In this document: piece after piece, positions 11,900-50,669 of the stretch
Position numbering within the stretch: the stretch's first letter is position 1
Layout of the letters: every line of letters starts with the position of its first letter
Origin: Diphasiastrum complanatum
Taxonomy: Eukaryota > Streptophyta > Lycopodiopsida > Lycopodiales > Lycopodiaceae
Reading direction: 5' to 3'
Length of the DNA stretch: 64,000 nucleotides
NCBI GenBank assembly: GCA_029204225.1
Contig: CM055102.1
Coordinates: forward strand, 47,772,870 to 47,836,869
Notes under the pieces: generated by a model
The model's database searches: none
What the model was told of the DNA's origin: nothing
The model's input: only the letters and a program-made list of their open reading frames with translations
Position numbers and translations under genes: made by a program

Positions 11900-14870
11900 A
11901 CCTCTTCAGCAGTTTCTTTTACAATGATAACATTATAATCTTGAACTAGGACATCTGCAAAGTCCCCTGTGTCATCCACTTCTCACTAGTGGAAGGTCGT
12001 GGTTCTTTCGATAGAGGAATTACAGAGTCTTCGTCATCTGTAGACTTTCCTGCCTCAACTAATTCGTTTAGCAAAACTGATATGGATTTCATTTGCATTT
12101 TTATTAATTCTACTAAACTAGAATCTAATTTTACAAAATCTGCTGGCTGGAGAAAAATTTAAATAATAATTTAATTTCAATCTAATTGTTGTGGCTTTTG
12201 ATAAGGACAAGCCACAGAACTTGTCATCGGATTTTTCAGTTTTTTTGTGACTGCTAGAAATTGGAACAAATTCTCAAAGCTAGTCAAACCGGTGGTGTTG
12301 TAATGCAATATAGATCGTTTGCCATTCAATGAATAATAACCAATGGTTATGTATACAATCTCATTGCACGGTCGTGCACCACCAGCATTGCGAACATTGG
12401 GCTTGTATCTAAAGAAAAGTAAATTATTAATTTAAACAATGATCTATGCTAAGCATAGAACATATAAAACCAATAAAATTAAGTTTTAATAAAATTGAAA
12501 ACGTACCAAATAGCATTTTCAATTCTAGCATTGCAAAAGTCAAAAGATCTTTTTGCACTGAAGTCGACTGCCAACTTGAACGAAATATTATAACTCTCCA
12601 AATAGGAGAAGTTGTGCTTTCAAGGAATCCCTGCATCACACTATGGATCTCAGTAAATTTGGAGAATCATCATTTAGTGATTCTTTCATTTGAAATCCAT
12701 AGGGGATGTCTGCAATGCAAAGAGTATAGGGCCTTTTCTTTATAAACTTAGAAATCTCCCTACAATCTCCTTCTTCCACAGTGTAAAAACACGGTTGATC
12801 ATCGACACATTTCGGGATGTATGTTTCTATTGAATCCACCTCGACAACGGTCTCACCCCATGCCAATCTTTCTCTGTCTCTTTTCTTTGTCTTCACTTTT
12901 AAAATGTGTTGTTTAAACTGCCTTGGAAGGACTTTATTTTTTTTGTCTTCAGCAGACTGAAAGAAGAGAGAATGAAACTATGCTTAGCATAGGATGTTAA
13001 CCAAGGAAAAATGAATGCTCAGCATAGAATAAACACAATAAATAATCAAAAAATAAAGTTTTTTCTAAGCTTGAGATCCTAGATTTTTGAGATCCTAGCT
13101 TAGAGAATACAATTCTATGCTTAGTATAAGCTATAAATGTTTGAAATAAAAAATTAATATATTTCTATGCTAAGCATAAGTGAAGTGAATACCATATCTC
13201 TAAATAAAATAAAAAATTGAATGAGGGCTTCATTTTTATTGTTCATAGGATAAATCCTCTGGCACTCCTCAAAATCTTTACAGTTCAAGCTTGTCACCGT
13301 GGCCTCTTGAACTTTCATGAATAATTTATGCTTGTATAAAAAAACAAATTAGTGATTAATGTCACAAAAAAATAAAACAAATTGCAATTAATATTAAAAA
13401 ATGCTATTTAAAAACCAAAGAGAATTTGACTTCTGAAACTTCTCGTCCATTTCAGCAAGGGAGAGCTGGCCATCATCAACCCTCGAGAGGACATTGATTC
13501 CTTGCATATTCTTTTACTCAAAAATATCCATCTCAGTTGGTATGGGTTTTAATGTGTGAGTGGTGGCAACACTATCAACCCAACAAAAGCAATGGCACTA
13601 ATAGATCAGAAAGAAGCTACATGAGGGTACTCCTAGGATAATTGCTTTCTGGCTTGTAAACTATGAGTGTCTACCAAAACAAAAAAATGATAAGAATCTA
13701 AAGAAGAAAAATCAAATTCAAAAACAGGTCTACATTCAGCCGGATCTACCAAACAACAAAAGGTATCACAATTGCTCGCATATGATCTTTAGATTTAGTT
13801 TTTTAATTATGTACATGTGTGTCGTTAGGCTCTTGAACATCCATTGGTCGATCTCTAGTGACTGGGTCAATGGGAGGTCAATCACATTGGTCTATATCCA
13901 GAATTAATGTAGTTTCTCTAATTTTTTTTGTTTTATGAATTTGATCTCTAATTTTAGAGATTTCGAATGAATTTTTCAATGATTGGATAGTGGCTCCAAG
14001 CAAAACTAAAGTGGCCTCTCTTCTGACTTTCTTTTACTCTATTCAGAAGGAACTACTTTTGGTCGCTTGGCCATGGATTTGATTCTGGACCTTGGTTTTT
14101 TGGTTGCGAATTTAATATGTACAACAGCCTGAGATCTCTTTTTTTTGGGAAAGGGGGTTGATTCAGAAGGTGCAGACTTACCAGTAGCATCTGTGTGAGA
14201 TGGGACAGTGGAAGAAGCTATATTGCCACATGTCACTACCACTGACCTTGTACTACGAGAAGAAAAGACTGGATCCTTCCTCTCAGCAATAGCACATAGC
14301 ATGTTTCTTAAACATTGTTTGAGGCTCTACATGAAAGAAAACAAAAGAATAATGTTAGAGAACTTCGAGTATTCATAAAGTAATCTATGCTCAACATAGA
14401 TCAGATTTATTATAATACTAGATAATATATAACCTAATTCATTGCAAATAATATATTTTATTTCTTTTAATATGTTAATACCAATGTCACAAGGGCTTTG
14501 TCAAAATACACTTTAATGGCATCGTCTTTGCAAAGTCGAATCTTAAACATTCCCTCATCCAAAATGAATATCAAATGATTTTGTCAAGTTCTTTCACAAG
14601 AATATTGACCAAGCTCTCTTGTTCCACATCGTCATCAGGGCTGATCAGCAAGGACTCTACCTTGCACTCAAAATTGACCTTCACTTCTTTCGCTCTTCTC
14701 AGCAATATTAATAAACAGTTCATTCATTTTACTGTTATTTAAACTTTTTGTAAAATAACACATGTATTTCTTTTTGTCCTTCAGAGGAACATCCTGAGCC
14801 TGGCCTGACATCCGCAAGAAAATCTTCGACATCCTTAATTTTTCAGAAATTTCGCTCTAAGTATGCAAAA
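11900..14870 (-). pseudogene. ParB/beta-class-type DNA amino-methyltransferase family, decayed copy M1
   Basis: Minus-strand exon pieces are scattered over 3 kb. At 14302-14039 lies a basic region (FPKKKRSQAVVHIKF, MAKRPK) matching the N-terminal region of M2. At about 12960-12636 is YTLCIADIPYGFQMKESLND; DIPYG (12710-12696) fits motif IV of N4/N6 amino-methyltransferases. IWRVIIFRSSWQ (12603-12570) follows, then CNARIENAIWY in another frame. Near 12310 is VYITIGYYS and at 12212-12183 ACPYQKPQQLD, matching the HPTQKP block of beta-class enzymes. The order motif IV, then QKP, is that of beta-class enzymes. Two frame changes (near 12640 and 12550) make this copy dead. A ParB segment is not clear here. 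Splice sites look plant-like, which argues against bacterial contamination. Confidence 0.6.
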
Positions 14871-16130
14871 TACAATTATTATTGGCAATTTATTAGAATT
14901 TCAAAGAAATTCTTTAAAATTCGAGTATAAATGACAAAAATTCACCCGAAAATTTGATTAAAAAATAACATTTTTGTTTGGATTTTTAGATTTTTTTTAA
15001 CATTTTTAAGTCGAAGTCAAAAAAAAGAAACTATTTTCTTTGCTAAGCATAGAAAATTCTTTTTTTTACAACTATTGCCTATGCTCAGCATAGAAACCTC
15101 TCTTCTTCGCTCTCAAGTCTTATGCTGAGCATAACACCTTTTCAATCTTTAAGTGGCTATGTTATGCTCAACATAAGATATTCTCTTAATAGTTCTATGC
15201 TAAGCATAGCGTGCTATCTCACTCCACGCAGATATGTTATGCTGAATATAGGATCTTCTCTTTCACTCGCCCATGATCTATGCTCAGCATAACATGTGGG
15301 CGAGCGAAAGACGAGTTCCTATGCTCATCATAACATAACCACGTGGAGTGAGAAATCACGCTATGCTCAACGTAGAACTAGGGAGAAATTAAGAGAATAT
15401 CTTATGCTGAGCATAACATAACCACTTTAAGATTGAAGAGGTGTTATGCTCAACATTAGACATGGGAGCGAGGAACGAAGGTTTCTATGCTGAGCATAGC
15501 CAATAGTTGCAAAATAAAACAATTTTCTCTTCTCAACATAGAATTTTAAAGAAATTAAACATTTCCTTTAAGAATATGGCGACACAATACCATGCTGAGC
15601 ATAAAGAAAATCTTTTAAAGTTTAAAAATTACAAATATTACTTGGACAAGAAGTGGATTGCTGATAGCTATGCGTGAGATTACAGAAGGTCATCCAATGA
15701 ATGATCCTATCGCTCTGATGACAACCTTGAACACAAATGAGGTGCCATGTCTTACTCTTGGGGTCCTTAAGTAAAATAGTTTGACCTCTAAACTTTAATG
15801 GGCCCTCATTTTACTTCGCGACCAACTTTTTTCTTCACGACCAACTTGTTCGACGACCAACTATTAGAACGAACCCGTGTCAAGTATATCAACCCTAATC
15901 CTACTGTTAGAAGGAAGACCTAACCCTAGCCCTAATCTTTTAACATTTAAGAGCAATCTTTTGTAGTTGAAAATTATCTTTGTTATTGTTGATTTCATGC
16001 TAAATGTGCTCTTTGCGAATTTTAGTGTGTAGTTCTATTGATGTTGGCCATAGTCTGTTTAACTCTTTCTATGACTAGCATACAATAATGTAAAATTTTT
16101 GTTTTTATTCATGCTTGGCATAGGACTAGA
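12440..16130. repeat. Cluster of about 20 short palindromes, consensus CTATGCTNAGCATAG
   Basis: Near-palindromes built on TATGCTNAGCATA occur at about 12446, 12977, 13016, 13113, 13165, 14383, 15040, 15080, 15120, 15162, 15203, 15237, 15278, 15316, 15361, 15403, 15447, 15484, 15591 and 16112. They lie in introns and flanks of M1 and are densest at 15035-15605. I did not see this motif elsewhere in the window. Confidence 0.85.
15026..15552. repeat. Large foldback (inverted repeat with arms of 200-240 bp)
   Basis: The left arm (about 15026-15269) and right arm (about 15292-15552) are imperfect reverse complements. Examples are TCACTCGCCCATG against CATGTGGGCGAGCGA, AGTGGCTATGTTATGCTCA against its inverse at 15400-15430, and AACTATTG against CAATAGTT. 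The loop near 15270-15290 is itself a TATGCTCAGCATA palindrome, and each arm carries several smaller palindromes. RNA from here would form a long hairpin. It could be a foldback transposon, a hairpin small-RNA locus or a recombination product. Confidence 0.8.
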
Positions 16131-16153
16131 ATCAAAATTTTAAATTTTTTGCA
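15600..16153. other. Flank of the foldback, no clear gene
   Basis: AT-rich sequence with the last palindromes of the cluster (15591, 16112). A short unpatterned stretch reads CGACCAACTT several times (15820-15870). No exon could be supported. Confidence 0.4.
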
Positions 16154-16336
16154 ATGGCAATTAGTTCTTCTTCTTCTTCTATTCCCGTAGTTGAAACTCA
16201 GTACATAGCCACATCTGAGTCATCCTCCTCTGATATTCCTAATGAAAGTTACTATTATGAAGTCACTCTTCAGATTCTCATCCTAATACCCTTTGTGTTT
16301 CCATGTCAACAACATCATCTGAAATACCTCATTTAA
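16154..16336 (+). CDS. Short Ser-rich ORF, doubtful gene
   Basis: ATG at 16154 begins MAISSSSSSIPVVETQYIAT with more Ser/Asp further on (SESSSSDIPNES). It recalls the Ser-rich start of the acidic gene at 6612, and it also stands divergently from a minus-strand gene across a palindrome-rich region. No downstream exon found. It could be a chance ORF or the first exon of a related protein. Confidence 0.25.
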   Translation: MAISSSSSSIPVVETQYIATSESSSSDIPNESYYYEVTLQILILIPFVFPCQQHHLKYLI

Positions 16337-16972
16337 CTACTTTTTAAGAAATGACACCTTTGACATTGATAAAATTTCAGCAAGCTCACACATGTGGGAA
16401 ATGATCCTCAAGTGTGAATGATCTTGTTAAGCTTTGTGTCTAGCACATAATTGATTCTAGATTGAATGCCAAGTCTAGTACAAGATTTTATGGCTAAATC
16501 ACAGTCTAGCATGCTAAGAATCAAAGAATGATTGCTTTGAAAAACAAAAGAGAAGAAGTACAAGAATTTAATGCATTAGCATAAGCCTCTACTTGAGTTA
16601 GAGAGAGAAAGAGAGAGAGAGAGAGATTCAAGCAAACTATAGTATAGATCCAAATTGACATGGAATAGCTTCAAACGTTGGTTCTTCATCCAAAAATTAT
16701 GAGAGAGTCTACATATATTTATGGAGATTGGAGTAGCTCGAGGTAGAACCATCTCTCTTCAACTTTCATCCACATCTAAAAGGGAGAACTAGAGAACTAG
16801 TGACATTTGTCACTTTACATGCATGCATTTCTACCTACTTTTACCAAGTGTCAAATTTTCAACTAGAATTGTACAAATCATCATGCATGTGTCCAATTTA
16901 TTTTGTGCATGCCTTGCATGTCACTGCATATAAAATTGGAGCAATGTAAATGGATCTAGATTAACATGGGAT
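16337..16972. other. AT-rich stretch, probably 3' LTR of the next copia
   Basis: The minus-strand copia that follows has a purine-rich tract (AAGGGAGGG) whose complement lies just right of 17000. It is followed on the minus strand by TGTTGGATTT, the expected start of an LTR. This stretch is therefore probably that LTR and flank. It includes a short (GA)n near 16604-16626. A second LTR copy was not found. Confidence 0.45.
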
Positions 16973-18905
16973 TTAGGAGAGTAGAAAAATAAATCCAACA
17001 CCCTCCCTTAATCTGGATCCATGAATGCTTAGTGCCTTTGTAAACACATTTGTTGTCATGTCTTGAGTTTGATAGTACATCAAGACTATCTCTTTGTCGG
17101 GAACCTTACTCTTGACATAGTGATATCGAATCTCAATGTGCTTACTCCCAGAGTGAAATCTAGGGTTGGCCGATAAGGCAATGGCACTCTGATTATCACA
17201 GAACATAATTGTCGGAATGTATTAATTCAGACATATGTCTAATAGTAAATTTCTCAATCAAATTGCTTCTTTAATGGCTTTAGAAACAACAACGTATTTT
17301 GCTTGTGTGGAGGAAAGAGCAATACAGGTTTGCTTACAACTTTTTCAAGAAATAGGACCTCCGTTGAAGAAGAATATAAATCCAGATGTGGATTTACGAG
17401 TATCTACATCTCCTCCTCAGCTCGCATCTGAATATCCACTAAGCCAATGGAGATTGTTGTTGTCGACTTTCCCATAGCAGATGAATAGGTCCATTGTAGC
17501 TCCAATGTATCTCATGACTTAAATAAGAGCTTTCCAAGGGGTGATGTCAGGATTAGCCATGAATTGGATTAGTGAGCTTATTGCAAAAGGGATGTCAAGT
17601 CTTGTGCAGACCATTGCATACATGAGAGATCCGACTACTAATTGATAAGGATACTCTCTCATTTGCTCTTTTTTCTGCTTTGTGTGAGGACATTGGTCCC
17701 TCGACAATCACAGGCCTGGATCCATCGGTGAGTGAGCTTCTTTGCAATTGATCAGATTATATCTTATAGGAGTATTATGAAGATACCTTTGTTGAGTAAT
17801 GTAAATTAGCCACCTCGCTCTGTCTTTGAATTCCCAAATAGTAGTGAGCCTCACCCAGAGTCTGGTTCTTGATCAGAGAGGAATAATCTATGTCCATCAT
17901 TTCTCTCCAGAGATCGGAGTCTAGTTGGTTAAGTGCCTCTTCGACTGTAGTCGGTTTTCGAATTAAAAGACATGCAGACTCATGCATATATCTTGTGGGT
18001 TGTGTGCACACTCAATTCGATCTTCTTGGAGGTGGCATCGGCTGATGATCCGATCCTTGGTTGTATTGCCCATGAATAACAACAACATCTTCTTCTGATT
18101 TGTTGTTGAATAGTTGAATTGACTACTGGCACGCTTGAACTAGAGGCTCAAATTGTCGTGTCATAGGCAGGGGCAGTCGAAGGTTCGCATGAAACTTTGC
18201 TCTTGCCTTTGAATTTAATGATCTGATCCTCGATAAAGAAAATATCCATACTAAATAAAATTTGCTGGGTATCAAGGTCATACAGCTTGTAAGTGTTGTT
18301 AGAGGAAGTGTAACCAATTAGGATGGTTTTGAGACTTTGGAAGTCAAATTTCTTCCTTGACTCCTTTAGGATTTACATGTAGGCAATGCATACGAACACT
18401 CATAGATTCTTCACTGAAGGCTTAGATCCTGTCCAAACCTCATAAGGTGTCTTTTATGAGAGGGCCTTAGTCGAGCATCTGTTCTGGATGTAAGCTACAG
18501 TGGAGACAACTTTAGCCTAGAAACTCTTCGGTAGTGATGCATGAGTCAACATGCATTTGGCTGACTCAACCAGGGTATGATTCTTCCTCTCCGCTATCCC
18601 ATTCAATTGAATCGAATAGGGAGTAATGAACTATTGTTCGATGCCTTGGCTTTTAGCCATACTCCTTGAATTCAGTAGAGATGTACTCTCCACCGCTGTT
18701 GGACCTCAGAGCTTTTATCTTCTTACCAATTTCTTTCTCTGCATGCTTCTTGAAGGTTTTAAAGAGGTTGAAAGCCTCTAATTTCTTCTTGATAAAATAC
18801 ACAACTGTCCTTTTGGAAAATTCATCAATAAAAGTAATAAAATTCTTTGCATCCTTCACTGAAGGATTTTGCATTAGGCCACATATGTTTGTATGTACTA
18901 TCTAA
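16973..18905 (-). pseudogene. Ty1/copia remnant with internal deletions
   Basis: Minus-strand order: integrase core at 18905-18653 (NFITFIDEFSKRTVVYFIKK, LRSNSGGEYISTEF), post-integrase sequence at 18640-18123, an RT piece at 18011-17775, an RT/RNase H connection at 17707-17519, and RNase H end at 17206-16973 (MFCDNQSAIALSANPRFHSG, SKHIEIRYHYV). Inside the RT piece, SLIKNQT is joined directly to LGEAHYYLGIQ, so the central RT with its YVDD box has been deleted. Many stops and shifts. It is similar to the ruin at 36148-37500. Confidence 0.8.
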
Positions 18906-19229
18906 TAGTCCTCTAGCAACATGCTGGTGGCTTGATCTAAAATCTGATTCCACAGGATTGGAGATTTTAGAGAGAGTAAAAGTAATTCAAGAAGTAAAAA
19001 TAGTATTCAATTTGTACCTAGCATAGTAGGATCACAACACACAGTGCACTACTACTATGAACCATTCTCAAATACAAGATCATGATCTGATCGTGTTATT
19101 CACAACAACCTAATGCAAATTCTCTATTTTCTTAATGTGTGTTTTACATTGTCGAATGCTTTCTGATAATTCCATTCTCTTACATTGATACTCGTTCCAC
19201 GATTCATTTGGAATATCTAATCTTAAAGG
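18906..19229. other. No recognised feature
   Basis: AT-rich spacer between two copia remnants of opposite orientation. No LTR or primer site recognised. Confidence 0.4.
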
Positions 19230-21060: not shown

Positions 21061-21364
21061 AACTAAGCGCAACGTCTAAGGTCATGCAAAGTCCAATCAG
21101 ATTCCTTAAGAATATATAAAATTACACATTATTCTATCTTGTCTTGCATTTAATGATCTTATTCATAAAATAGCCTGATCCTTTTGGGCACGTATATGCT
21201 ATATTGTAAGTTGCTGAGGTAGAATTGATATGTAGCATTTATATTTTAGTGCATAGGCTCCACGCCAGGCCACATCACTGCTAGCCTCACCACATTCATG
21301 CCCCAGTTCCTCATCAATTAATTAGGAGCCACAAATAAACAACTCTAGACCACACAATTGAATA

Positions 21365-25375: not shown

Positions 25376-25419
<44 letters not shown>

Positions 25420-29306: not shown

Positions 29307-30047
29307 TGATGAATTTCACACGTGTGGACTGTCCAGTACATGTACTTGTGATCTCCTAAGGTGTGTAGATGCACCAAGATCAAGACTAGATTGAGATTCA
29401 AGATCAATCTTGAATCCTATGGCAAAAACACACTACTACATGCATTCAATCACTTCCAACTCTCACTCACACGTATGGGAAGTATTCCAAAAATAATCTA
29501 AGTAAAAACAAGCTGCTCTCCTCAAGTAGAGAGAGAAAATGCATCATGAGCTCTCGGGTAGAGAGAGAAAGCTAGAAATCCAATAACTCACAAAATCCAT
29601 GAAATCACCAAATCAATTGCATTCAAAATGAGGAGTACAATGATACTAGTAAGTCCACGAGCTACCACTATGCTTAACTATGATTGGACCATATTTTGTC
29701 ACCTCTTGATCCTATTGGATCATTGATCTATGCACCTCTTAATTCTATTGGACTATATTTAAGCACACCTCAATTTCCTATTGGACCTCACAAGGTTCCA
29801 CCTCTAAATCCTATTGGACCTCTTGGAATTCATCAAACAAAAACTTTACACTTGTCTACACTCTAATTAGCAAGTGTTTAGCCTCTTACTCTATTTTGGC
29901 TCAATAGTGGCATTACAAGTGGAAATGCATAATTTGCCATCTATGCCAAATTTATTCCTATCAACATCCTACACCTAGATGCTTGATGTAAAAAAAAAAC
30001 ATAAGACCCCTATATCTAACATAGATAATCTTTTTCAATTCTTTACA
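29307..30047 (-). repeat. 3' LTR of element A
   Basis: 741 bp. On the element strand it starts TGTAAAGAATTGAAAAAG and ends ATTCATCA. Contains the degenerate 33-bp tandem array with GTCCAATAG motifs. Confidence 0.93.
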
Positions 30048-30065
30048 CTCCTCCTAAAAAATTAT

Positions 30066-33000
30066 CTATGAAGATTTGAGCATTGATCTTGATATAACTC
30101 CAAGATTAGATCTATGCTTGATGAAAGCACTTTTGCTCAAAGGCTTGGTGAGTAGATCGGCAATACAAGAGGACAAGTTGACATGCTCCAAATAGATTTC
30201 TCCTCCAATAAGCTTTTCTCTCACAAAATGGTGTGCCACTTCTATGTGCTTACTTCTTGCATGAAATATGGGATTATTGGCAAGAGCTTGGGCCGATATG
30301 TTATAACACTTGATCATTGGTAGATCATCCTCCTTGATGCACTTTAGTTCCATTAATAGCCTCTTGATCCAAAGCACTTATTTGGTAGTTGTAGTGAGTC
30401 CTTTGTACTCGGCCTCACATGAAGAGAGAGATATAGTATCTTGCTTTTTGGAAAGCCAAGATATTAGATTGCTTCCAAGAAAGATAGTGTATGCACTAAT
30501 AGACTTTCGATCCATCTTGTCACTTGCAAAGTCCGAATCCGAGTAGCCAATAATGGATAGATCTTCACTTTTATAGAGTAGGCCATAATCACAAGATGAA
30601 GATACATATCTTAGAATCCTCTTGGCCATCTTCCAATGATGGATCTTAGGATTTTGCATAAATTGACTCAATTTGTGCACACAAAAACTTAGATCGGGCC
30701 TAGTAATGGTAAGCCAAATCAAGGAGCCTACAAGACTCCTAAACAGTGTGATGTCCTCAAAGGATCTTTCATCACCTTTATTAGGATCTTTTACAATTTG
30801 CTCCATTGGAGTATCTATGCTCTTAGAATTTTCTATATGGAATTTTTTCAACATAGAGTGAGCATATCTAGATTGGCATATACAGACATGATTTTCATAA
30901 AAATCAATTTCTAGGCCTAGGATGTAATGCATCTCTCCTAGATCTTGCATTTTAAACTCACATCCAAGTGCTAGCTTGGTTTCATCAACTAGCTTGATAC
31001 AACTTCCACAAAGAATAATGTCATCAACATAAAATTAGAAGAATGACAGTATTGCTATCAACAAACTTTAGATACATGGAAGGATCATAGTCACTTAGAG
31101 TAAATCCTAGTGAGATAAGAAAAGAATTAAGTCTTGAATACCATGATCTTGGTGCTTGCTTGAGTCCATAAAGACTTTTGAAGAGCAAGCACACTTTGGA
31201 CTCATCCTTGATGAATCCTTGAGGTTGTTCCATATAGATCTTCTCCTCAAGATAACCATTTAGAAAAGCATTGGATACATCTAATTGGAACACCTTCCAC
31301 TTGAAAAAACAAGCAAGAGAAATAAGAATTTTTATTGTCACCATCTTTGCAATGGGTGCAAAGGTCTCCTCATAATCAAGACCATGGATTTGAGCAAATC
31401 CTTTGGCACATAATCTTGGTTTATGCTTGTTGATGGTGCCATCATGATTGAACTTGATCCGAAATACCCACTTGCAACCAATCACATGCTTGTTGGATGG
31501 AGGATCCACAAGCTTCCAAGTATTGTTGGTGATCAATGCATCATACTCTTGCTTCATGGCATCATACCACTCCTTGGTATTGAGTGCCTCTTGTACATTC
31601 TTTGGCTCTTCATGAGAGACATAAAAAACATAATTAGTGGAATCAAGATCCACTTGTTTGCCTTTGTCAACATATGAGAGCCTCTTAGGCTCGGATATAT
31701 CTCTCATGGATCTTCTTGGTGAGAAAATCCGAGGAGAGTCCTCTTCAAATATCGACCCCATCACATCATGATTGTCTTCAAAATCAATAATTGATGATGC
31801 ATCCATAGATTTCTTGATCTTGGCCTCTTCAAAAGATGAGTGTTGATCTTCATGAAAGACAACATCTCTACTTTCAGTAACTTGAGAAGTAGAGAGTATA
31901 AAGACTCTATAGGCCTTCTTGGTGGATGAGTATCCAACCACGATCGCTTTTCATGCACTAGAATCTTCCTTCTTCCTTGTTTCCAAGGGAATATGGACAA
32001 AGCATAAGCATTCAAAAACTCTAAGGTGATCAACCTTAGGCTTCTTCAAAAATAAGATTTCATATGGTGACTTTCCTCCAAGAGCTATATGTGGGAACCT
32101 ATTGCAAAGATAATTTGCACAATTAATGGCTTCTCCCCAAAAATCTTTGGGAAAAGATGCCTCAATTCTCATAGATTTTGCACATTCACATAGAGATCTA
32201 TTCTTTCTCTCGGCCACTCCATTTTGAGAGGGAGAGTAGGCACAAGAAAACTCTCTTTTAATGCCTTCAAGCTCACAAAAATCTTGAAATTTGTTGGAGA
32301 TATATTCACCACCTCCATCACTTCTAAGAGCTTCAATCTTGAATGAGAATTGCTTCTCTACATAAGCTTTGAAAATAAGGAAATGATCAAACACCATAGA
32401 TTTTGAAGCAAGAAGATATATCCAAGTGAATCTTGTGTAATCATCAATGAAAGTAACAAAACAAGTGGCTCCTCCCTTGCTTGTAGTTGTTGAGAAATGC
32501 ACATCCGAGTGGATTAACTCCAAAGGATGCTTGCTTTTGATAGAAGATCTTGTAAATGGCTTTTTGTGAGATTTAGCAATAGCACAAGCCTCACAAGGCT
32601 TGATCTTCTTGGAGAATGACTTTGGCAAGCCAATAGCTTTGGATTCTTTGATCATAGAGAGCATGGATTTGTAGTTGGGATGACCCAACCTCCTATGCCA
32701 TAATTCCTCCATAGAGAGCTTGTTCACAAGAGCAACATTACAAGCATTCACATACTCATTTGGATCTAGTTTATAGATGCCACCAAATCTAGATCCTAAT
32801 GCAAGTATCTCATCATTCTTCTTGATAGTGCAAGTATCAACATTGAATTTTACATCAAGGCCATTATCAAGCAATTGGCCAACACTAATAAGATTCTTGG
32901 TAAGCTTAGGTACATAAAGAACTCTAGAGAGAGAAAGAACATTAGAGGATGCAAGCTTCAAGGGAATGTTCCCTATGCCTTCAATAGGACATTCAAAATC

Positions 33001-34056
33001 ATTTGCAGTGTATATTGATTTCTTCACTCCACCATAAGGTGCAATAGAAGAGAAAGAGTCCTTGGAGCTACACATATGTGAAGAGGCTCCACTATCAATA
33101 TACCATAGGCCGTCCTTCTTGAAAGGAGTAGATGAGAAACTAGAGACCATAAGAGATCCCTCTCCATCACTTGCAATAGTGTCTTCCTTCTCATTGGTAA
33201 TATTGGCTTGCTTGAGTTGATTCTTCTTTTTGAAGGAATTGGTGGCATAATGACCTTTCTTGCCACAATAAAAGCACTTGATCTTCTTCTTCTTCATGAG
33301 CTTGGATGATGGAGCATTAGAGGAATCATCTTCCTCCTCATCTTTGTCTTTGGATTTGACTTTGTCCTTGCTTGAGGATTGTTGATATTGGTTCTTGCTC
33401 CTCTCTTTGTGCTTATCCTTGGCAAAGAGAGCTTTGCCATCATTATGAGTGAGAGAAAGCTTGTCCATCCTCAAGAGCTTGTACTCTTGTCTTGATTCTT
33501 CTGAAATTAGCACACTTTGGAGAGCCTCCAAACTTGGTAGCTCCTCCTTAATGGCATAGGATTGGACAAGGTTATCAAATTCACTTCTCAAGCCATTGAG
33601 AATGACTTGAACTAGCTCATTTTGATTGATGGAATCACCAATGCAAGCAAGCTCTCTATGAATATCTTTTACTCTCAAAACATAACTAGATGCACTCTCA
33701 TCACTCTTTTGGCTACTTTGAAAGATTTGATTCCTAAGAGTGAGAAGCCTAGAGGTATTCTTAGCCTCATAGATAGTCTAGAGACAATCCCAAGCTTCTT
33801 TGGCTATTGTACAAGTACCTATCTCCCTCAATATCTCATTAGAGACATTCATCTTAATGTAGTGGAGAGCCATCCTAGCTCTCTTTCTGTATTTTTGAAC
33901 CTCTTGAAGAACTTGTGGTTCTTCTTCAAGGCCAAGAACTATGTCCATCACGTCTTGAAGGATCAAGATGGACTCCATCCTCATTTTCCAAATTGAACAG
34001 TTTGAAGTGGTCAATCTTTCGCTTGATTCCAACAAGGATGAACCCATTGAAGACAT
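30066..34056 (-). pseudogene. Gag-pol of element A, inactivated
   Basis: Order: gag from 34056 (MSSMGSSLLESSERLT), zinc knuckle FYCGKKGHYATNS near 33270 (last Cys replaced by Ser), protease WYIDSGASSHMCSS near 33100, pre-integrase ELWHRRLGHPNYKS near 32690. The integrase core follows (CFVTFIDDYTRFTWIYLL, LRSDGGGEYISN, YSPSQNGVAERKNRS), then RT (GCKWVFRIKFNHDG, FQLDVSNAFLNGYLEE, YVDD at 31031-31020) and RNase H (WLSKKQDTISLSSCEAEYKG to the end). About 1,330 codons, normal for copia. Lesions: TAG at 33780, TGA at 31953, a frame change just before YVDD, TAA at 30380. The TGA and the frame change are also in element C. Confidence 0.93.
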
Positions 34057-34800
34057 TTAAAGTGAAGAAAACTCAAATGATGAACAATAAATGTTGCTAC
34101 ACACTCTCAATAGGATCCAATAAGAGAGTACTATCTCCTCCTATGAAAGATCTTGCAACCATTTGTGAATTGATTCTCACTAGCTACTCAAATCTCTCTA
34201 AAACAAGATCTATTTCACATCAAATGATGGAGTATAGGCAAAGTTAGAATCTAACACTCTTAGCACATGTGAAATACACTAAGAAACCAAATTTGACTCA
34301 AATACAATGATATTGCATGAAACAAAATGGCTAAGATCTCAAAACAGTGCCTAGATCACATATAGATGAGATTGGCAAGCATACAACTGTGATTTTGGAT
34401 TAACCAAGAAATCTCTTGACCAAACCAAATGTGTCCACCCAGGTCTAGGTGCCCTACCTAACCCTCTTCAAAAGTTTATAACTTTTGATTGGCTCAACCA
34501 AATGGAATGAAACTGATTGCAACATAAACTAGACAAAAATAGCTTCAAAACAAGCTATCAAGCAAGGTAAATGGATCAAACATGAGAGAGAACTTCCAAA
34601 CTGAAATTGGATGTTCCTCACACGTGTCTGAGCACTTGATTCTGTACAGTACCAGGTCAGATCCAATCAATGTCCTTTTGATCTCTTTTGATCCAAGATT
34701 GAACAAGATAGCTAGGAAAATGGGCCTTGACAACTTCTAGCTCAAGATTGATGAAAATTTTTTACTTAGATGGATCAAAATGCATGGTAACCTTAGGTAG

Positions 34801-34812
34801 GCTCTGATACCA
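34801..34812 (-). other. Primer binding site of element A (initiator-Met tRNA)
   Basis: TGGTATCAGAGC on the minus strand directly follows the 5' LTR. It is the usual plant copia site complementary to the 3' end of initiator methionine tRNA. Confidence 0.95.
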
Positions 34813-35553
34813 TGATGAATTTTACACGTGTGGACTATCCACTACATGTACTTGTGATCTCCTAAGGTGTGTAGATGCACCAAGATCAAGACTAGATTGA
34901 GATTCAAGATCAATCTTGAATCCTATGGCAAAAACACACTACTACATGCATTCAATCACTTCCAACTCTCACTCACACGTATGGGAAGTATTCAAAAAAT
35001 AATCTAAGTAAAAACAAGCTGCTCTCCTCGGGTAGAGAGAGAAAATGCATCATGAGCTCTCATGTAGAGAGAGAAAGCTAGAAATCCAATAACTCACAAA
35101 ATCCATGAAATCACCAAATCAATTGCATTCAAAATGAGGAGTACAATAATACTAGTAGGTCCATGAGCTACCACTATGCTTAACTATAATTGGACCATAT
35201 TTTGTCACCTCTTGATCCTATTGGATCATTGATCTATGCACCTCTTAATTCTATTGGACTATATTCAAGCACACCTCAATTTCCTATTAGACCTCACAAG
35301 GTTCCACCTCTAAATCCTATTGGACCTCTTGGAATTCATCAGACAAAAAATATACACTTGTCTACACTCTAATTAGCATGTGTTTAGCCTCTTACTCTAT
35401 TTTGGCTCAATAGTGGCATTACAAGTGGAAATGCATAATTTGCCATCTATGCCAAATTTATTCCTATCAACATCCTACACCTAGATGCTTGATGTAAAAA
35501 AAAAACATAAGACCTTTATATCTAACATAGATAATCTTTTTCAATTCTTCACA
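34813..35553 (-). repeat. 5' LTR of element A
   Basis: 741 bp, same length as the 3' LTR, with a few substitutions (for example TTCACACG against TTTACACG at the inner end). Starts TGTGAAGAATTG on the element strand. Confidence 0.93.
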
Positions 35554-36116
35554 TCAACTTCAAGTCATTGGAGGTAATGGCTAAGAAGCAAGTTGTGATT
35601 GGTCTTCCAAGTTCCTTAACTAGCATCAATCATGTTTGTGAGTCTTGTGCTATGTCAAAGTCACATTGACTACCTTACACTAGATCTACATCTAGATCTA
35701 CAAAGCCTTTTCAAGTTATACATTTGGATATTCATGGAATTACTACAATTAGAAATAGTCGAGCTAAGATGTATGTAACTTTTATTGATAATTTTAGTAG
35801 ATTTTGTTGGAAATATCTACTAAAGAGCAAAGAGAAAGGGGATATAGTGAGGTGAGTAAAGCCTACAACGTTTACATTCCTTCTACGAATAAGGTGATTA
35901 TTGGTAAATATGTCATTTTTTATGAGGGGAATATTCCAAACTGATGATGGTGTGGATGGATCTAACATTCTTGATGTTAATGTGATGGATCCTACTTTAG
36001 ATGGTGATGATGAAGCATCTTGATCAAGTCAAAAGCCAAGGAGAACATCAGGGGAAAGACAAATTCCTTCAAGGCTCACATATGATGAAAAGACTGGGTG
36101 TTTCATCGACTATGGT
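35554..36116 (+). pseudogene. Copia element B, 3' part (integrase fused to post-integrase by a deletion)
   Basis: After the second TCAAC the pre-integrase domain of B resumes (FKSLEVMAKKQVVIG, CESCAMSKSH), then the integrase start (FQVIHLDIHG, MYVTFIDNFSRFCWKYLLKS). Near 35830 the text jumps to SKAYNVYIPSTNKVIIGKYV, which normally lies about 200 residues later. Most of the integrase catalytic core is therefore deleted. It ends near 36116 in RRTSGERQIPSRLTYDEK-like linker. RT and RNase H are absent. Confidence 0.85.
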
Positions 36117-37507: not shown

Positions 37508-37624
37508 GTGCTCTTTGATGATTCATCGGGAATGCATGTGACAAAACATGAAGTTTCTACCCATAGAACATTGCTGGCTTATGAACCAAAACCTACAGAA
37601 ATACAAGAAAACTACCCACAGACA

Positions 37625-38730: not shown

Positions 38731-38926
38731 CAGCGGTGTCAAAGCTCACGAGAAAATGTGTCTACTAGATTCTATTACATTCCAACAGTGTTAGAGCAGG
38801 TTACTCAAAATCTCAAAGCAAGGTCATTCAAATCAAAGAAGCCTAATACAAGCTGAAATGTTGTATACAACAATGGCATCTACAAGCAGCATTCTACTTG
38901 AATCATGCACTTACCACCTGAGTTGA

Positions 38927-40340: not shown

Positions 40341-40413
40341 TAAAAGAGTAATAAACAAAGGATTATGGACTCTGCTATTCACGCGAAACAGGACTTCAAG
40401 TCAACTCCTATAA

Positions 40414-41355
40414 GAAACCATAAACAACCGCACCACAATGTGCACCAACGAAGGCACAAAAGGAAATCACAAAGCAAGGTCAACATTTTGGTTATAAGCG
40501 AAGACCAATGAAACCGCAATGTGCCCCAACCGCAACACAACCACAATGACGTGATTGCAATCGCTTACGTCGTTTCAATATTCAAGGGAGAACTGAATTG
40601 AAGGCTATTGAAGGAGCCTCACATATGGCCTACAAACGGTGTCAACGAAGGCAATGAAGGCCACTACAACCGCACCACAACAAGTCCACAAGAACTCACA
40701 ATGCAAAGACCAATGAAAGGAGTCAACGTAAGGTGCGGTCAGCTACAGCCAAAGCAATGAACCACAACTGACTGCCAAGACACCACAAGATGAAACTTGC
40801 AGTCACCTACAAAGCAAACCGAAGGCAGTTGATGACCGCTCACGACCAAAAGGCACCATAGAAAAATGATTGCGGTCACAGATGGCTGCAAAGCAAATCT
40901 TCATGACCCAAGTACAAGGAAGATCGAGCAAAGTACCAAATGCAGAACGAACTCCATGGACGAAAAAGACAACAAATTAGAAGCTGTTAGAACGTCTTAA
41001 ACCAGTTCTTGTAATCAAATGATTAGCATAAACTCTTTTTCTAAGTTCCTATATAAACAGGATGAACACAAGAGAGAAGGTTGCGTAGGTTAATGTTGTG
41101 TAGATGAGTTGATGTCAGAATCAGCTAGTAAGGGAGGATAGTTGATAAGCTAGAGTTTGTAAGAGATAGAGTTTTCTCTTGTGGTAACGTGCTGCTTGGT
41201 ATGCCAAACAGTGCTCAAAGATCATTGATATAATACAGATGCTATTTGCACCTATTTCTAAGTGTACAATCTTGAATGCCTTTATGTTGTTTATTGTTCA
41301 TGTGTTTTTAGCTGTTACAATGTTTTTCTGCAATTAGGTTCACTTCAATGAATGC
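40414..41355 (+). repeat. Right LTR of element F, 3'-truncated
   Basis: Matches 37625-38560 with many substitutions. TATATAAA at 41050. It loses similarity at about 41355, where the MITE copy begins. Confidence 0.75.
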
Positions 41356-41362
41356 ATGAAAA

Positions 41363-41714
41363 TGACCCTTTGTAAAGATTCTTTTTATATTTTTTCTCTA
41401 TTTTTTCTTACACATGGACCAATCAAAACACTCAAATTTGAAATCTACATAACGTAACTTTTTGAATCCACATTTTGATTCCACACTAAAAATGGCATAA
41501 CTTTTTAGTGGTAAGTTCAAATTTAGCGAAGTTTAGTGCATTGGAAAGCGCTCAACAAGGGCTTCCCAATGATATGTTAGATGGCATACTTCTAAGCTAC
41601 GATAAAAAGAGTTATGGCAAGTCAAAAGTATTAGTGTTATAATATTTTAATAATATAAACTACATCTTGCACGAATTCTTAAAGGGTCTTTTTGGAGCTC
41701 AAAACTCTTCTAAC
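41363..41714. mobile_element. Second MITE copy, inverted relative to 5686-6063
   Basis: Reads GACCCTTTGTAAAGATTC at the left and AAGGGTCTTTTTGGAGCTCA then AACTCTTCTAACG at the right, the reverse complement of the MITE at 5686-6063 with modest divergence. The outer part of its left terminal repeat is missing. Confidence 0.75.
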
Positions 41715-42090
41715 GGATTCTCAAAGTAAAGCTTGTCTCATCGTAGACAAGTACAAAACAAATAATGATCCACTATCTGGAAGCCAAACGAAAGGTTGCC
41801 AAACAATCGTCATCCCTTTTCACAATGAGAAATTGATGATTGAAAACTACGATCATTTAATCAATAAATGTTGTTGGGGCTTGGTGAGACATTACCATAC
41901 CATGTATATGGATTAGATTGATCTAGAGTAGGAAATAAGTGTGAGGAGATTCAAATAGATAGCAATAAATGAGATTTTTAGGCCAATTGAGGAAGTTAAA
42001 TAGTTTAGAGGCCTAAAAGTCAAGTTAGTGAATGGAGGGTCCATTCCCACCAAAATTCAAATTCAAATAATAAGGGAGGTAGAGATTGGT
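41715..42090. other. No recognised feature
   Basis: Short ORFs without motifs. AT-rich spacer between the MITE and a tandem repeat. Confidence 0.4.
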
Positions 42091-42094
42091 CAAT

Positions 42095-42285
42095 AGCCAT
42101 TGAGGTCAAGTGCACAAAAACTATTATAAATAGTGGTACATTGTATTTTCTTTTTCATGTACATTGTATTTTGATAAATAGTGGCCAGTAGCCATTGAGG
42201 TCAAGTGCACAAAAACTATTATGAATAGTGGTACATTGTATTTTCTTTTTCATGTACATTGTATGTGTATAAATAGTGATACATT
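42095..42285. repeat. Tandem repeat, unit about 95 bp, two copies
   Basis: AGCCATTGAGGTCAAGTGCA begins copies at 42095 and 42190. Both continue into ACTATTATAAATAGTGGTAC and TTTTCTTTTTCATGTACATT-like text. A partial third unit follows to about 42285. Confidence 0.85.
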
Positions 42286-42439
42286 GTATTCCCAAAAATA
42301 GTAGGGTTAGCATTTTGGAGGGAAAACCAAGTGGCAAATAGGGTTGGACCTATTATAAAAGGAGAAAACTCATGGAGAGACAAATCTTCTCTCTTCTTTC
42401 TCTCATTTCATCATTATACATGGTTCTCTTTGGGTTTCA

Positions 42440-42738
42440 CTACTCATTGGTGCACTCTCTTGATGATATATTGCAGTCTTGTGTGGAGAGATTGATGCGA
42501 GGTCAAAGAAATGTTGTCTTCGATGGAAGAGGAGATGACAACTATTGCTTTGTCGTTCTTCTCTTTCCACTCTTGAAGTTCTTTGTTTGTTGGCATCTCT
42601 TCGGTGCCATCCACCCACAACCATAAGGCTTCTCCTCTTAGGATGAGCGAGGTCTTCACTATCCAAGCAAGGAAGTTTGATCCATCTCTTCAAGTACCTT
42701 GCAAATCTTTGATTGGATGCTGTGTATGGAAGCCATAG
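42440..42738 (-). pseudogene. Copia gag N-terminus next to an LTR
   Basis: Minus-strand start MASIHSIQSKICKVLEE at about 42738, then (next frame) LWLWVDGTEEMPTNKELQEW and DKAIVVISSSIEDNI, the usual copia gag pattern of 'W..DGTE...EW..KD.KA'. Sequence to the left of about 42430 is unrelated, so only the 5' end of this element survives. Confidence 0.65.
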
Positions 42739-42770
42739 TCTTAGTGACAAGGCTCTGATTGAGTCTTGTG

Positions 42771-42782
42771 GCTCTGATACCA
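42771..42782 (-). other. Primer binding site of a minus-strand copia
   Basis: TGGTATCAGAGC on the minus strand, one base from CATTCCAACA, the expected LTR 3' end. Orders LTR, primer site and gag correctly. Confidence 0.85.
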
Positions 42783-42783
42783 C

Positions 42784-43390
42784 TGTTGGAATGAAACCGG
42801 ACAATCGGGTCGCTCTGTAGGAACTGTTGAAACCGAGTATTCAAGCTCTAGAGACAATTCTAATTTGAGCTTAGATGGAGGCAATCTATCAAATAAGGCT
42901 ATTGTCTCAAACTGTGATCAATCATCCCCCGAACAGTAGATAGCTACTGCTATTCTGACAATGAGTTTATGAATAGCAGATAATGTCTAGTGACAGCAGA
43001 AATGTATCTACTAATAAAATTGGACAATCATCACAAGATTCAGAGATTGCACATTGAGCAGAAAAATTGTAACTCATCTATATTATCAAAATCGAGTATA
43101 CATCAGAAATTTCTTTTGAGCATTGTCTGTTTCCCAGATCAACGCATCAGTGTGAAATAGGTGTTCTCTGCTCACGAATGGAACTAGCTATTGCTAGAAC
43201 TATCTCTCTTTCTTGATACGCACCTCAGTGAGTGCTATGTTTAGGATTGTGTTTTTCTATGTATGTTATGCATGTCTATGCAATACATATATCGTATTGA
43301 ATTAGATTACAAAATTTGATTAGCTAAATGCTCATTATCTATTTTCTCTATTAGCGTTGCATGGAGGTGATGGATCGTGATAGTTTAAAA
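42784..43390 (-). repeat. Probable 5' LTR of the copia with gag at 42440-42738
   Basis: The inner edge (TGTTGGAATG on the plus strand at 42784) is supported by the primer site. The outer edge is not defined, since no second copy lies in the window. Confidence 0.5.
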
Positions 43391-43628
43391 AACTTCACGC
43401 CCAAGTAGCTGAGGTTCGATAGTTTGTCCATGCCCGATATGTCATCTTGGACTTAGCTTGTGGATGTCCAATTAGTTGACATAGCCCAATAGAGAGAACT
43501 AAAAGGATAGATATAAAAACAGTAAAGCTTTGAAATGTAGAAACACAAGGTCTCTTCATGAGGTGCTCTAGTTTATTCAAATGGGTTATTAGGCCACAAA
43601 GGAGCACACACATGTGCACATGCATGGG

Positions 43629-44200
<572 letters not shown>

Positions 44201-45020
44201 ATGTTTGAAGACTATGAATCGTCGTCTAGCTCTAGTGACGATGACAACAATCACGCCATATCCAAAACAAAATTGGCATACGATGGACCACACATAAATC
44301 AATTGTCACGTCGTGAGCATATGAGATTTAGAGCCATGATGAAAATACATTAACAACAACGTGCCAAAACAAATAAGCCTTGACCTACTACTACTACTTC
44401 TTCTTCAGAATCAAGTTCAAGTGTTGAAAATGAGTTTTGCATTCAAGATGAACTTGAAATAATGAACAACTTGATAAATAACATCTATGAGCATAATGAC
44501 ATGGAAGAATGGACTAAACATGATAGTGAATCATTTATTAGTGCCGAGGAAAAAAAATTGAGAGAAAAAACAAATACACCATTATATCTTGGAGCAAAGA
44601 CATCTAGTTTGGCCGCTTCGTTGCTTATATTGAGCCTCCAAGCAAAACATAAATGGAGTGATACAATTGTTACATCCTTACACAACAGGGAAATCTTATG
44701 ACGCACTGATCAAAATCGATTTTGATTCCCCCAGATCAAATATAACATGCTCTACTGACAAGAAATAGTTTGGTCTCAGTATCATACAACACTCCTCTCC
44801 GAAGGAAAAATTTATAAGGCAAGGTTTGCCAGAAGATCAATGCTACATATTCAAGATGTCAATGCAAGGCCATTCTTTTGGAGTTGATATTGTGAGTAGA
44901 ATGAAAAGAGTCGACAACGGGGACCTAAAGAATGCTTGGATGCAGTTTGACCACACAAGGAGAGTGTGCAAATGGACCATAATGGCTTGTCACATCTACA
45001 ACCCTAGGTACCCATAGGAA
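44201..45020 (+). pseudogene. TNP2/CACTA-like or related transposase N-terminal remnant
   Basis: Plus strand. Ser/Asp-rich lead (DYESSSSSSDDDNN), then TNTPLYLGAKTSSLAASLLI and LQAKHKWSDTIVTSLH. This fits the 'PLY.G...S.L...L..L..KHNWS......LL' pattern at the start of TNP2-type transposases. After stops near 44700 another frame reads LPEDQCYIFKMSMQGHSFGV and RRVCKWTIMACHIYNPRY (to 45015), whose family I do not recognise. Frame changes and stops make it dead. The TNP2 link is by pattern only. Confidence 0.4.
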
Positions 45021-45408
45021 CATAACACAATTTCCTATTGAGTGGGTAATTGAAAAGGTTTCTCCTAAGAAGATTCCCTTCAAAACTTTAAAAATCAAGG
45101 TACAAAAAATAAAATCACATTTTTGGGTAAAATTATTTTTTTAAGTGCAGGCTTTTTGACTTTTTTAAAATCTTCAAAATGCACATACCATATTCTCAAA
45201 AATACATTAGTGATAAACTGCACAATTATGTGCATTGCAAATTTGATATTGTTTTAAAAAAATATTACAAACAAAAAATGAACCTAAAATTCATATAGCT
45301 AATTAACTCTTCACTGAAATTTTGTTATAGGTACTTTCATAAATCATTAATAAGTTATTCATATTTTAAATGTCATCTGAATATTGGCATCTAGATATTT
45401 TCAAAACA
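45021..45408. other. AT-rich spacer with a short dispersed repeat
   Basis: Around 45027-45080, CACAATTTCCTATTGAGTGG and following bases match 63620-63715 (same strand) and 60149-60232 (inverted). Otherwise nothing is recognised. Confidence 0.5.
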
Positions 45409-47054
45409 TTATAATGATGTATTACATTGCATAAAAATTTCATAACAAATAAATTTATCAAAATGCAGAATAATAGTGCATAAGTACATCTTCATACATG
45501 TTCCTGCAAACATGTCCAGAATCCAATCACCCTCATTTGAAAACATATCAATCAACTTATTGATTAATCTCTGAGGCTTTTGGTAAGGGTTAACCAAAGA
45601 CCTATCACCCTCTAAGTGTTTCAATTTTTGAGTGACAGCTGGACAAGAAATCACATTACTACATTGCTCATTGCAATAAATCCACAATCTATTTTTCTCA
45701 TCTGCATCATAGTAGCCCACAGTCATCATTTCAAAAGAACTGATAAGCCAGCAGCCCAGTGCACGTTCAAGATTTGTTTTGTTCCTGCATATGTAATACC
45801 ATATTAGTATTCAGACATACTTAGCTCCTTATCCTCCCATATTCCGAAAATAGTGTCTTGAATATCCCACACATGTCCTTGTCGAAAAGCCAATTGAAAC
45901 CATGAATCATATTTACGAAGGCCATGTGACTTTTCAGACTCATCAATGACTACTCCAACTCTAGCAAACATTGGCGTCTCAATGCACCATCAGCTTTTTC
46001 GTGAGATTCAAGATAATCAACATATTCATGGTGAAAAACCCTAATATTTTCAACAAATGACATCCAAGCCCTGTAATCGTTATCATTATTGTGATCCCAG
46101 GTAAGTAACTTTGCTTCTTTGAGTGTCAGATTACAGAATATTTTACATTCAACAAATCGAAAAATGCTGGTAGTCGGATAAGCGGCCACTAGATGTCTTC
46201 GCGCCTCGGCTAAGTGGGATCCACCAATAACATAATAATCATGAAGTTCAGTTTTTTTCTCATTAAAAACCCCCTTTGAAGGACATTGGTAAGGATCAAC
46301 TAACACAATGAAAGGCACAACAGGCGCATGTGGATTTAGCTTCATTTTGTTCATCAAATTAGTGACATGCACTTTTTGAGGAGCTCTTACTTCCATCATC
46401 CTCCTACCTATATCGGGGTCAATAGGAGGCCTATGAACTTTTTCAATAGGCAAGGCAAAGATCTTGCATGACGCCAACTTTTTGTTCTGAATAGTCTCCT
46501 TAATTTTATTCTGACCAGTCTTGATTACACTTTTCTTTAGCAAACCACCAGGAAGTATGGCCTCGCTTTCGAAACCACCATCACTACCAGAGCTGCTAGA
46601 TAATCCATCATCATTTTTTAATTTTCTCTTGGCCATGACTTTGACTCTCTTCGTCTTCTCAGGGGAGTGCACTTGAACCACAACTTTTGTAGCCTGAGGT
46701 GGAGGGCGTTTCTTTTTTGGAGAAGGCCCTTTCGGTGAGGACAGGTCTTTACTAATTGGCACAAATTGCTGAATGAAAGGCAACAAATCTTTTATTAAAT
46801 TCTTCGAGTTTTTAAATATTATCTTCAACTTTTTAGGAAGGGCAGTTGTTAAACACATGTTAGCCTCCACCAAAGAGAATAATCTACCATCGTCATTTGT
46901 TCCACGGGTTCAATGACTCCCCAAAGTCACCCTCATAGTCTATTCTTTGAATATGACCACAACACTTCGAATTAATGTCTGTCAAAGGAGTTGCTTTCAG
47001 CTTGCACACATACAAAAATAGGCCTTCCTTTGGAGAATACGATATTGTCCCAGA
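45409..47054 (-). pseudogene. ParB-like plus DNA amino-methyltransferase family protein, copy M2
   Basis: Minus strand. A 307-codon open stretch (46873-45950) has a basic Ser/Pro/Lys region (SPKKKRPPPQATKVVV, KRVKVMAKRKLK). A ParB-like fold follows: VVPFIVLVDPYQCP, then YYVIGGSHLAEARRHLV (ParB box-II-like), LTLKEAKLLTWDHNNDN and WMSFVENIRVFHHEYVD. Further on are KYDSWFQLAFRQGHVW and, at 45729-45409, MMTVGYYDADEKNRL. Next is NPYQKPQRLINKLIDMFSNE, then GDWILDMFAGT. The last two match HPTQKP and DPFxGSG of beta-class N4/N6 methyltransferases (motifs X/I). The motif-IV segment seen in M1 was not found here. A frame change near 46900 separates an upstream piece (SYSPKEGLFLYVCKLKATPL). Copia E interrupts at 47055. 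Broken copy; methylation substrate unknown. Confidence 0.7.
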
Positions 47055-47745: not shown

Positions 47746-47832
47746 CTCCTCCTCAAATCTAGCCTTGGAGATCACAATGCTTTTATAAATAACTCCAATT
47801 GAAGATCTAAGCTTGACAAATGAATCTTTAGG

Positions 47833-50656: not shown

Positions 50657-50669
50657 GGCTCTGATACCA
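50657..50669 (-). other. Primer binding site of element E
   Basis: TGGTATCAGAGCC on the minus strand, directly after the LTR end at 50670. Confidence 0.93.

Follow-up and report, generated by a model that had tools for sequence, protein, structure and literature searches.

VANC, the second gene of the plant VANDAL/MULE DNA transposons, has an anti-silencing role and acts on the methylation of the element's own sites via short repeated motifs. DNA methyltransferases are themselves encoded by SymbioLINE-Dnmt, SymbioDIRS-Dnmt3 and a charophyte gypsy element, the charophyte case being under purifying selection; Dam-like methyltransferases occur in DIRS elements, and DNA transposons with DNMT in marine viruses are mentioned (PMC5890265). 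The bdelloid rotifer enzyme N4CMT, a PF01555 protein of bacterial origin, is the product of a host gene, has a chromodomain and puts a silencing mark on transposons; it is said to have no eukaryotic homologues (PMC8885841). Here we analyse a 64,000-nucleotide stretch of contig CM055102.1 of the lycophyte Diphasiastrum complanatum (hereafter the window), which carries three broken copies, M1, M2 and M3, of one gene, all on the minus strand; its product joins a ParB-like domain to a beta-class amino-methyltransferase. We consider it highly probable (roughly 88%) that the three are dead copies from a family of terminal inverted repeat (TIR, class II) DNA transposons that carry their own DNA methyltransferase gene in a land plant. 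Land-plant TIR DNA transposons with an amino-methyltransferase of their own, joined to a ParB-like domain and kept open by strong selection in some copies, are to our knowledge of a different sort from the known cases.

The enzyme resembles the beta-class methyltransferases CcrM, DpnA, MboIIA and RsrI (PF01555) in its motif order IV–X–I, with DxPYG, QKP and DxFxGxGTT in one chain, but differs from them in its five exons, DIPYG for DPPY, the ParB-like fusion, long basic and acidic stretches and a eukaryotic transposon as carrier. Set beside ParB, Noc, KorB and the sulfiredoxin fold, it has no Pfam ParB match, reads GGSHS for GERR and is fused to a methyltransferase. VANC is not a methyltransferase, and the proteins are not known to be related. 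Whereas the retrotransposon cases carry C5-cytosine or Dam-like enzymes, the carrier here is a TIR DNA transposon and the enzyme a beta-class amino-methyltransferase with a ParB-like domain (PMC5890265). N4CMT and the present family both have PF01555 in a eukaryote and are both tied to transposons, but here the transposon itself owns the enzyme (PMC8885841). Judged by its sequence, the present family places the PF01555 domain in plants.

The gene is better preserved elsewhere. The methyltransferase exon of M2, scanned against prokaryotic genome contigs, returned six loci, L001–L006 (12 pattern matches), all from one metagenome-assembled genome (MAG) labelled uncultured Trichormus. Because introns are present and one locus lies inside a gypsy element, we read these loci as plant DNA, probably contigs misbinned with the symbiont, the fern Azolla being the host of that cyanobacterium. 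The name Azolla, as used below, is taken from the MAG title (Trichormus, run ERR2144891), the introns and the gypsy target, and every comparison between the two plants depends on it. All six loci have five exons and four GT-AG introns at equal positions. Spliced, the L003 exons form one 960-amino-acid frame comprising, in order, an N-terminal part, a basic linker, the ParB-like core, a helical stretch, DIPYG, NPYQKPQ, DLFSGTGTT and an acidic tail. The spliced L002 frame has 961 amino acids, and L004 has 960 open codons with ATT at the start position of the other loci; the other three are damaged, L001 by a frameshift in exon 3, L005 by one stop and the loss of its 5′ part, and L006 by several stops. 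Between L002 and L003, the ParB part shows a nonsynonymous divergence (dN) of 0.054 and a synonymous divergence (dS) of 2.3, and the methyltransferase part values of 0.051 and 1.7, dS being near saturation in both, so the enzyme frame has been preserved across many silent changes; the N-terminus and tail are less constrained (dN 0.25 and 0.17). In pairs with L004, dS is saturated and not computable in most parts. The methyltransferase gene is under strong purifying selection.

The copies of this gene in the window are:

12183..14009, minus strand: M1, an older broken copy with DIPYG (match to the 960-amino-acid L003 protein)
45412..45810, minus strand: M2 methyltransferase exon 4, with NPYQKPQ and DWILDMFAGT (PF01555, E 1.1e-8)
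45834..46909, minus strand: M2 exon 1 remnant with the ParB-like domain (frame break near 45956)
62884..63598, minus strand: M3, exons 2–3 of another broken copy (match to the L003 protein)

The original prediction, made from this stretch alone, had placed three loci here and held that they share text. Both points stand: M1 matches the L003 protein at residues 225–372 (E 2.1e-18), 497–593 (2.6e-9) and 655–822 (7.1e-10), M2 at 111–469 (6.8e-75) and 750–876 (3.5e-28), and M3 at 546–751 (7.4e-22), and these matches to a single protein rule out separate or chance resemblances. From its two matching stretches, M2 is therefore without the DIPYG exon; its N-terminal part, the end of exon 1 and exons 2–3 were not found. 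Weaker basic N-terminal text extends M1 to about 14350, and DNA fetched past the window places M3 exon 1 outside it, on the far side of an insertion that splits M3. The DIPYG exon is retained in M1 and M3, although the motif itself, which the prediction had read in both, is found in M1 only, the M3 text being NISYG. Likewise, its HPTQKP-like block is present in M2, with the text NPYQKP. Adjoining M1, window positions 15040–15480 hold dense palindromic text like TATGCTCAGCATA, which resembles the arms of another element, and a long AG microsatellite occupies 62260–62353.

A search of 5.8 billion proteins with the two M2 open reading frames (ORFs) gave 28 homologues for 45953–46909 (E 7.6e-73 to 2.6e-14) and 41 for 45409–45810, annotated at most as 'hypothetical protein'. 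The former (16 of the 28 aligned) are long exons with a common N-terminal stretch, a basic linker and a highly conserved core, KMKINPHATVVPFLVMVDP...YFVIGGSHSAEARRQL...LLAWDHNNDNDYRQKMSSIERIRFFHHEYLD, while the latter (27 of 41 aligned) are single exons around NPYQKPQRL...DDWVLDLFSGTG. The 45409–45810 ORF matches the Pfam family N6_N4_Mtase (PF01555) with E 1.1e-8 and 35.8 bits, and the spliced L003 protein reaches 60.8 bits (cut-off 26.7 in both cases). Within the single five-exon L003 frame, catalytic motif IV (DIPYG) is followed by motif X (NPYQKPQ) and then the S-adenosylmethionine (SAM) motif I (DLFSGTGTT). The beta-class order that had been pieced together from different copies is thus found in one protein, the DIPYG and QKP blocks do not belong to different proteins, and the proposed search with the methyltransferase profile gave significant Pfam and Protein Data Bank (PDB) matches. 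The best PDB match of L003 is CcrM (E 6.5e-10), in two stretches of conserved order scoring 13.1 and 27.1 bits, of which the DIPYG stretch (13.1 bits) is weak taken alone; next come DpnA, MboIIA and RsrI, and the match to the N4 enzyme PvuII is much poorer (E 0.045). As the best matches are N6-adenine enzymes, N6-adenine is favoured, within the limit that sequence cannot fix base specificity; the methyltransferase would be active, with adenine N6 as its most likely target. The prediction had called such fusions familiar in bacteria and phages; in the phage records, matches are confined to the methyltransferase part, with up to 45% identity over 62 residues. For the exon-1 core, the predicted structure has the ParB/Srx fold, and its assignment as ParB-like is based on that model.

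The methyltransferase gene has a partner. Of the Azolla loci, L001, L003 and L005 extend far enough to show it: upstream and on the opposite strand, head-to-head with the methyltransferase gene, is a DUF7869 gene. The partner is a single 888-amino-acid frame in L001 (PF25273, 1.8e-52) and a single 873-amino-acid frame in L003, and is frame-broken in L005; DUF7869 (PF25273) is the sole Pfam family above cut-off for this protein. Inverted repeats enclose the gene pair; those of L005 span 34 nt (94% alike) and those of L003 span 33 nt (79%). The L003 unit spans 7,724 bp with TGTT on either side, and when the element and one TGTT are taken out, a continuous 360-amino-acid gypsy frame results. Every frame of at least 80 amino acids in L003 698–8421 is DUF7869 or a methyltransferase exon, or overlaps these or the palindromes described below, the gypsy frames lying outside; no reverse transcriptase appears in this interval, judged from the frame list with no separate reverse transcriptase profile search run. 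The first Asp (ID) and DN..REN of DUF7869 are kept in the window copy and in all 10 loci fetched from another DUF7869 group, in which IDGMD is exact in 6 and VGHTHxxIDQ in 8. DUF7869, which keeps these acidic blocks, is the putative transposase of the element.

A copy with the same layout surrounds M2, and a related insertion sits in M3:

45024..60231, no strand assigned: full extent of the M2 transposon copy, two nested copia included (ends align with Azolla copies; methyltransferase-side end left, DUF7869-side end right)
45020..45023, no strand assigned: left target site duplication, ACAT (flank read)
60232..60235, no strand assigned: right target site duplication, ACAT (flank read)
45024..45105, plus strand: methyltransferase-side terminus, starting AACACAATTTCCTATTGAGTGGGTAATT (alignment with Azolla ends)
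60143..60231, minus strand: DUF7869-side terminus, reading inward from 60231 (alignment with the L003 end)
51068..53703, plus strand: M2 partner DUF7869 gene, frame-broken, head-to-head with the methyltransferase gene
47054..50975, minus strand: nested copia, long terminal repeats (LTRs) 47054–47360 and 50669–50975, 97.7% alike
53724..59932, plus strand: nested copia, LTRs 53724–54461 and 59187–59932, 95.2% alike
63619..64000, plus strand: non-autonomous derivative inserted in M3, 1,151 bp, continuing to would-be position 64769, one end of each type
63923..63937, no strand assigned: palindrome CGATGC-ACT-GCATCG inside the M3 derivative

The relevant unit of M2 is thus 45024–60231, and the interval 11900–47054 of the original prediction is merely a span. 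The AACACAATTTCCTATTGAGTGGGTAATT of 45024 recurs at 63619 with 3 mismatches and, inverted, at 60231. The methyltransferase-side alignment spans 84 columns (69%) and combines one window end with those of six Azolla loci, and the DUF-side alignment spans 91 columns (76% mean column identity), with two ends from the window and three from Azolla loci; the DUF-side ends of the window and L003 are 83% alike over 42 bp (E 3e-7). Within the partner gene, 52120–52542 matches PF25273 (E 8e-42), and the partner region as a whole matches the L001 DUF7869 protein (tblastn 2e-111). A copy on C3 (L053) is uninterrupted where the second copia sits in M2, and its DUF-side end is identical in type with a different flank. 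The inverted repeat 45021–45040/53984–54003 was rejected as the pair of element ends because its right arm falls in a copia LTR; the right end is 60231. Another copia at 29307–35556, of the same family as that at 53724–59932, lies on the opposite strand, and window positions 43632–57175 have a segmental duplicate at C11:49.18 Mb, with aligned pieces 97–99% alike, flanks and part of one copia included.

Identical 4-bp target duplications were seen in two of the five insertions with two readable flanks. The M3 insertion is bounded by both end types, and therefore a short derivative has made use of the same ends; neither gene was found within it, and its flanks are TATT and CATT. The suggestion that the gene had spread by being, or riding on, a mobile element is borne out and can now be sharpened, in that it is one of the two genes of a TIR transposon. 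The DUF7869 partner, the element's ends, its target duplication and the palindrome described below were not part of the original prediction.

Relatives are numerous in the 1.74-Gb chromosome-scale assembly that contains the window. The M2 ParB-exon protein (P0002) gave at least 129 matches (the best of 1822 first-look candidates), merging into 111 sites, some of them duplicates on small contigs, and the N-terminal piece of the M2 partner (249 amino acids) gave at least 157 (1111 first-look candidates), the best 150 of which form 116 sites. A DUF7869 relative lies within 12 kb of at least 30 of the 111 ParB sites, in 27 cases head-to-head, against 0.19 expected if DUF sites were placed at random; on contigs C1–C24 alone, at least 24 of 91 sites are paired (21 head-to-head). 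Among 30 ParB loci taken from this genome (L007–L036, the window included), 21 are followed on the same strand, inside the 1.5-kb flank, by exon 2 or methyltransferase sequence, and 9 are not. The other DUF7869 group is also present and is probably the larger, the family as a whole giving 2953 first-look candidates, of which the best 150 were scored. A piece of that group (ADNCWRENK, VGHTHEDIDQVF), which is probably more abundant, lies at window positions 147–698; for this reason of group membership it was rejected as the partner of an element further left.

The control regions share a sequence feature. A 15-bp palindrome, CGATGC-N3-GCATCG, recurs there in both plants. In L001 and L003 it stands in the stretch that separates the genes, and in L002 and L006 on the 5′ side of the methyltransferase gene. 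It forms arrays in L001, L003 and L002. The exact 15-mer occurs in 21 of the 30 ParB loci of the window's genome (15 of 23 when look-alike pairs are counted once) and in none of the 10 loci fetched from the other DUF7869 group (1.5-kb flanks). With spacers of 0 to 30 bases allowed, 50 of 54 copies have exactly 3, three have 4 and one has 13. The half-site TCGATGC is found 5, 8 and 3 times between the mapped gene parts of L053, L054 and L039, against 0.07–0.18 per shuffle, and 3, 4 and 4 times just behind exon 1, against 0.01–0.04 per shuffle; the latter region is intron 1 in L053 and L039. Elsewhere in the locus, it occurs 0 times in L003 and twice in L001. A palindromic site conserved between the two plants in the control region would suit a ParB-type binder or the target-recognition part of the enzyme, and the methylation site may be GATGC/GCATC or lie within CGATGCNNNGCATCG.

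Taken together, these features give the following layout, clearest in the Azolla contigs: an inverted repeat, the DUF7869 gene facing left towards it, a control region that both genes share and that holds the palindromes, the five-exon ParB/methyltransferase gene facing right, and a second inverted repeat. DUF7869 would cut and paste the element, its insertion giving a 4-bp target duplication. The ParB-like part or the target-recognition part may bind the palindromes, with the enzyme methylating there or nearby, so that the element would mark its own control region and perhaps daughter DNA. Most likely such a mark would shield the element from host silencing, or time both genes and transposition; we think this likely because of the analogy with retrotransposons whose cytosine methyltransferases are self-encoded (PMC5890265) and, with the effect reversed, with N4CMT (PMC8885841). 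A bolder version, which we put forward tentatively and with the odds against it, is that of a new superfamily of eukaryotic DNA transposons that moves with the help of a parS-like system, in which the ParB domain loads on the palindrome array between the genes and brings a bacterial-type adenine methyltransferase, and a private mark other than 5-methylcytosine (5mC), probably placed at GATGC/GCATC, evades silencing and times transposition. That mark would then be an epigenetic state of the element's own making in ferns and lycophytes, and plant DNA would owe genuine N6-methyladenine (6mA) or N4-methylcytosine (4mC) to it. None of the papers listed in a literature search, as judged from titles and the openings of abstracts, deals with such an element, which may still be catalogued elsewhere under another name.

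Several observations weigh against the transposon interpretation or parts of it. For the ParB-like domain, no Pfam ParB family matched either M2 piece, the 8 of 28 exon-1 homologues tried or spliced L003 (E up to 1), and Foldseek with the ParB model returned no match below E 0.001; the domain named by the original prediction therefore stands by its predicted fold and not by profile. GERR is the nucleotide (cytidine triphosphate, CTP) box motif of ParB; this box is absent, VIGGSHS(A/T)EARR standing at the equivalent place in the 16 aligned exon-1 homologues. As to DUF7869, its structure model is unusable (mean predicted local distance difference test score, pLDDT, 31.8), and its profile found no transposase and no sequence match in the PDB. 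Neither recognised ends nor a DUF7869 partner was found near M1. Only 3 of 4 target bases agree in L005 and in the M3 insertion, and the L001 flanks disagree. A diverged direct and inverted repeat array at L001:10952–15592 begins exactly at the methyltransferase-side end of the element, and L001 may be without a target duplication because this array adjoins that end. The nearest sister copy, on C11 at 49.18 Mb, has flanks in common with the window and was rejected as an independent second insertion, being a segmental duplicate. Across the genome, the best 150 matches place no DUF7869 relative within 12 kb of 81 of the 111 ParB sites, 3 of the 30 pairs are in another orientation, and the copies read (window, C11 sister, C7, C3 and C22) are all broken, so that the genome search proposed earlier yielded many relatives and terminal inverted repeats but no intact copy among those read. 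The palindrome, a candidate binding site, was first noticed in the Azolla loci and then sought in the window's genome; it is absent from L004 (152 bp of 5′ flank), from L005 (region deleted) and from 9 of the 30 ParB loci. M2 (L007) is among these 9, with no palindrome nearby and both regions seemingly lost.

A sub-case of the transposon interpretation, distinct from it solely in the role of the enzyme and given almost even odds, is that the methyltransferase is a passenger: DUF7869 alone would move the element, and the enzyme would bring some other benefit, for instance protection against host silencing or rival elements. The other DUF7869 group is without the palindrome in the 10 loci fetched, and therefore DUF7869 may work without the enzyme; retrotransposons carrying cytosine methyltransferases offer a precedent (PMC5890265). 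The strong selection on the enzyme and the two genes' common control region with its palindrome speak for a closer involvement, though neither is decisive.

An improbable alternative is that an old bacterial gene, retained in ferns and lycophytes, became a host gene family through ordinary duplication, its members often lying beside unrelated DUF7869 transposons. Such a family would account for the strong purifying selection on the enzyme, for at least one copy pair being a segmental duplicate (C11 49.18 Mb and the window) and, given how common DUF7869 genes are (2953 first-look candidates, best 150 scored), for some of the neighbours. It fits poorly with inverted ends that lie outside both genes, with terminal DNA alike in two plants, with a 7.7-kb two-gene unit sitting cleanly inside a gypsy frame (L003) and with the head-to-head order in 27 of 30 pairs.

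Viruses are known to have ParB-like genes and N6/N4 methyltransferase genes, and the phage methyltransferase matches (up to 45% identity over 62 residues) would agree with the copies being relics of a large DNA virus, or of some other viral element, that had integrated; this origin is nevertheless very unlikely, as no relative was found in 2.9 million viral contigs (ParB exon, methyltransferase exon and DUF7869, with two short peptide patterns each), and the L003 unit is just 7.7 kb with two genes and no further non-overlapping frame of at least 80 amino acids. Least credible of all is bacterial contamination or chance resemblance: although the six best-preserved loci come from the Trichormus MAG, their four GT-AG introns at equal places in all six and the insertion of L003 in a gypsy element tell against it, and the more than 100 relatives in the assembly holding the window refute it there.

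If the family is indeed a TIR transposon with its own methyltransferase, the disputed question of enzymatic 6mA or 4mC in plants would gain a definite enzyme to look at, together with a definite candidate site, and the element would be a new case of how a mobile element may handle host silencing.

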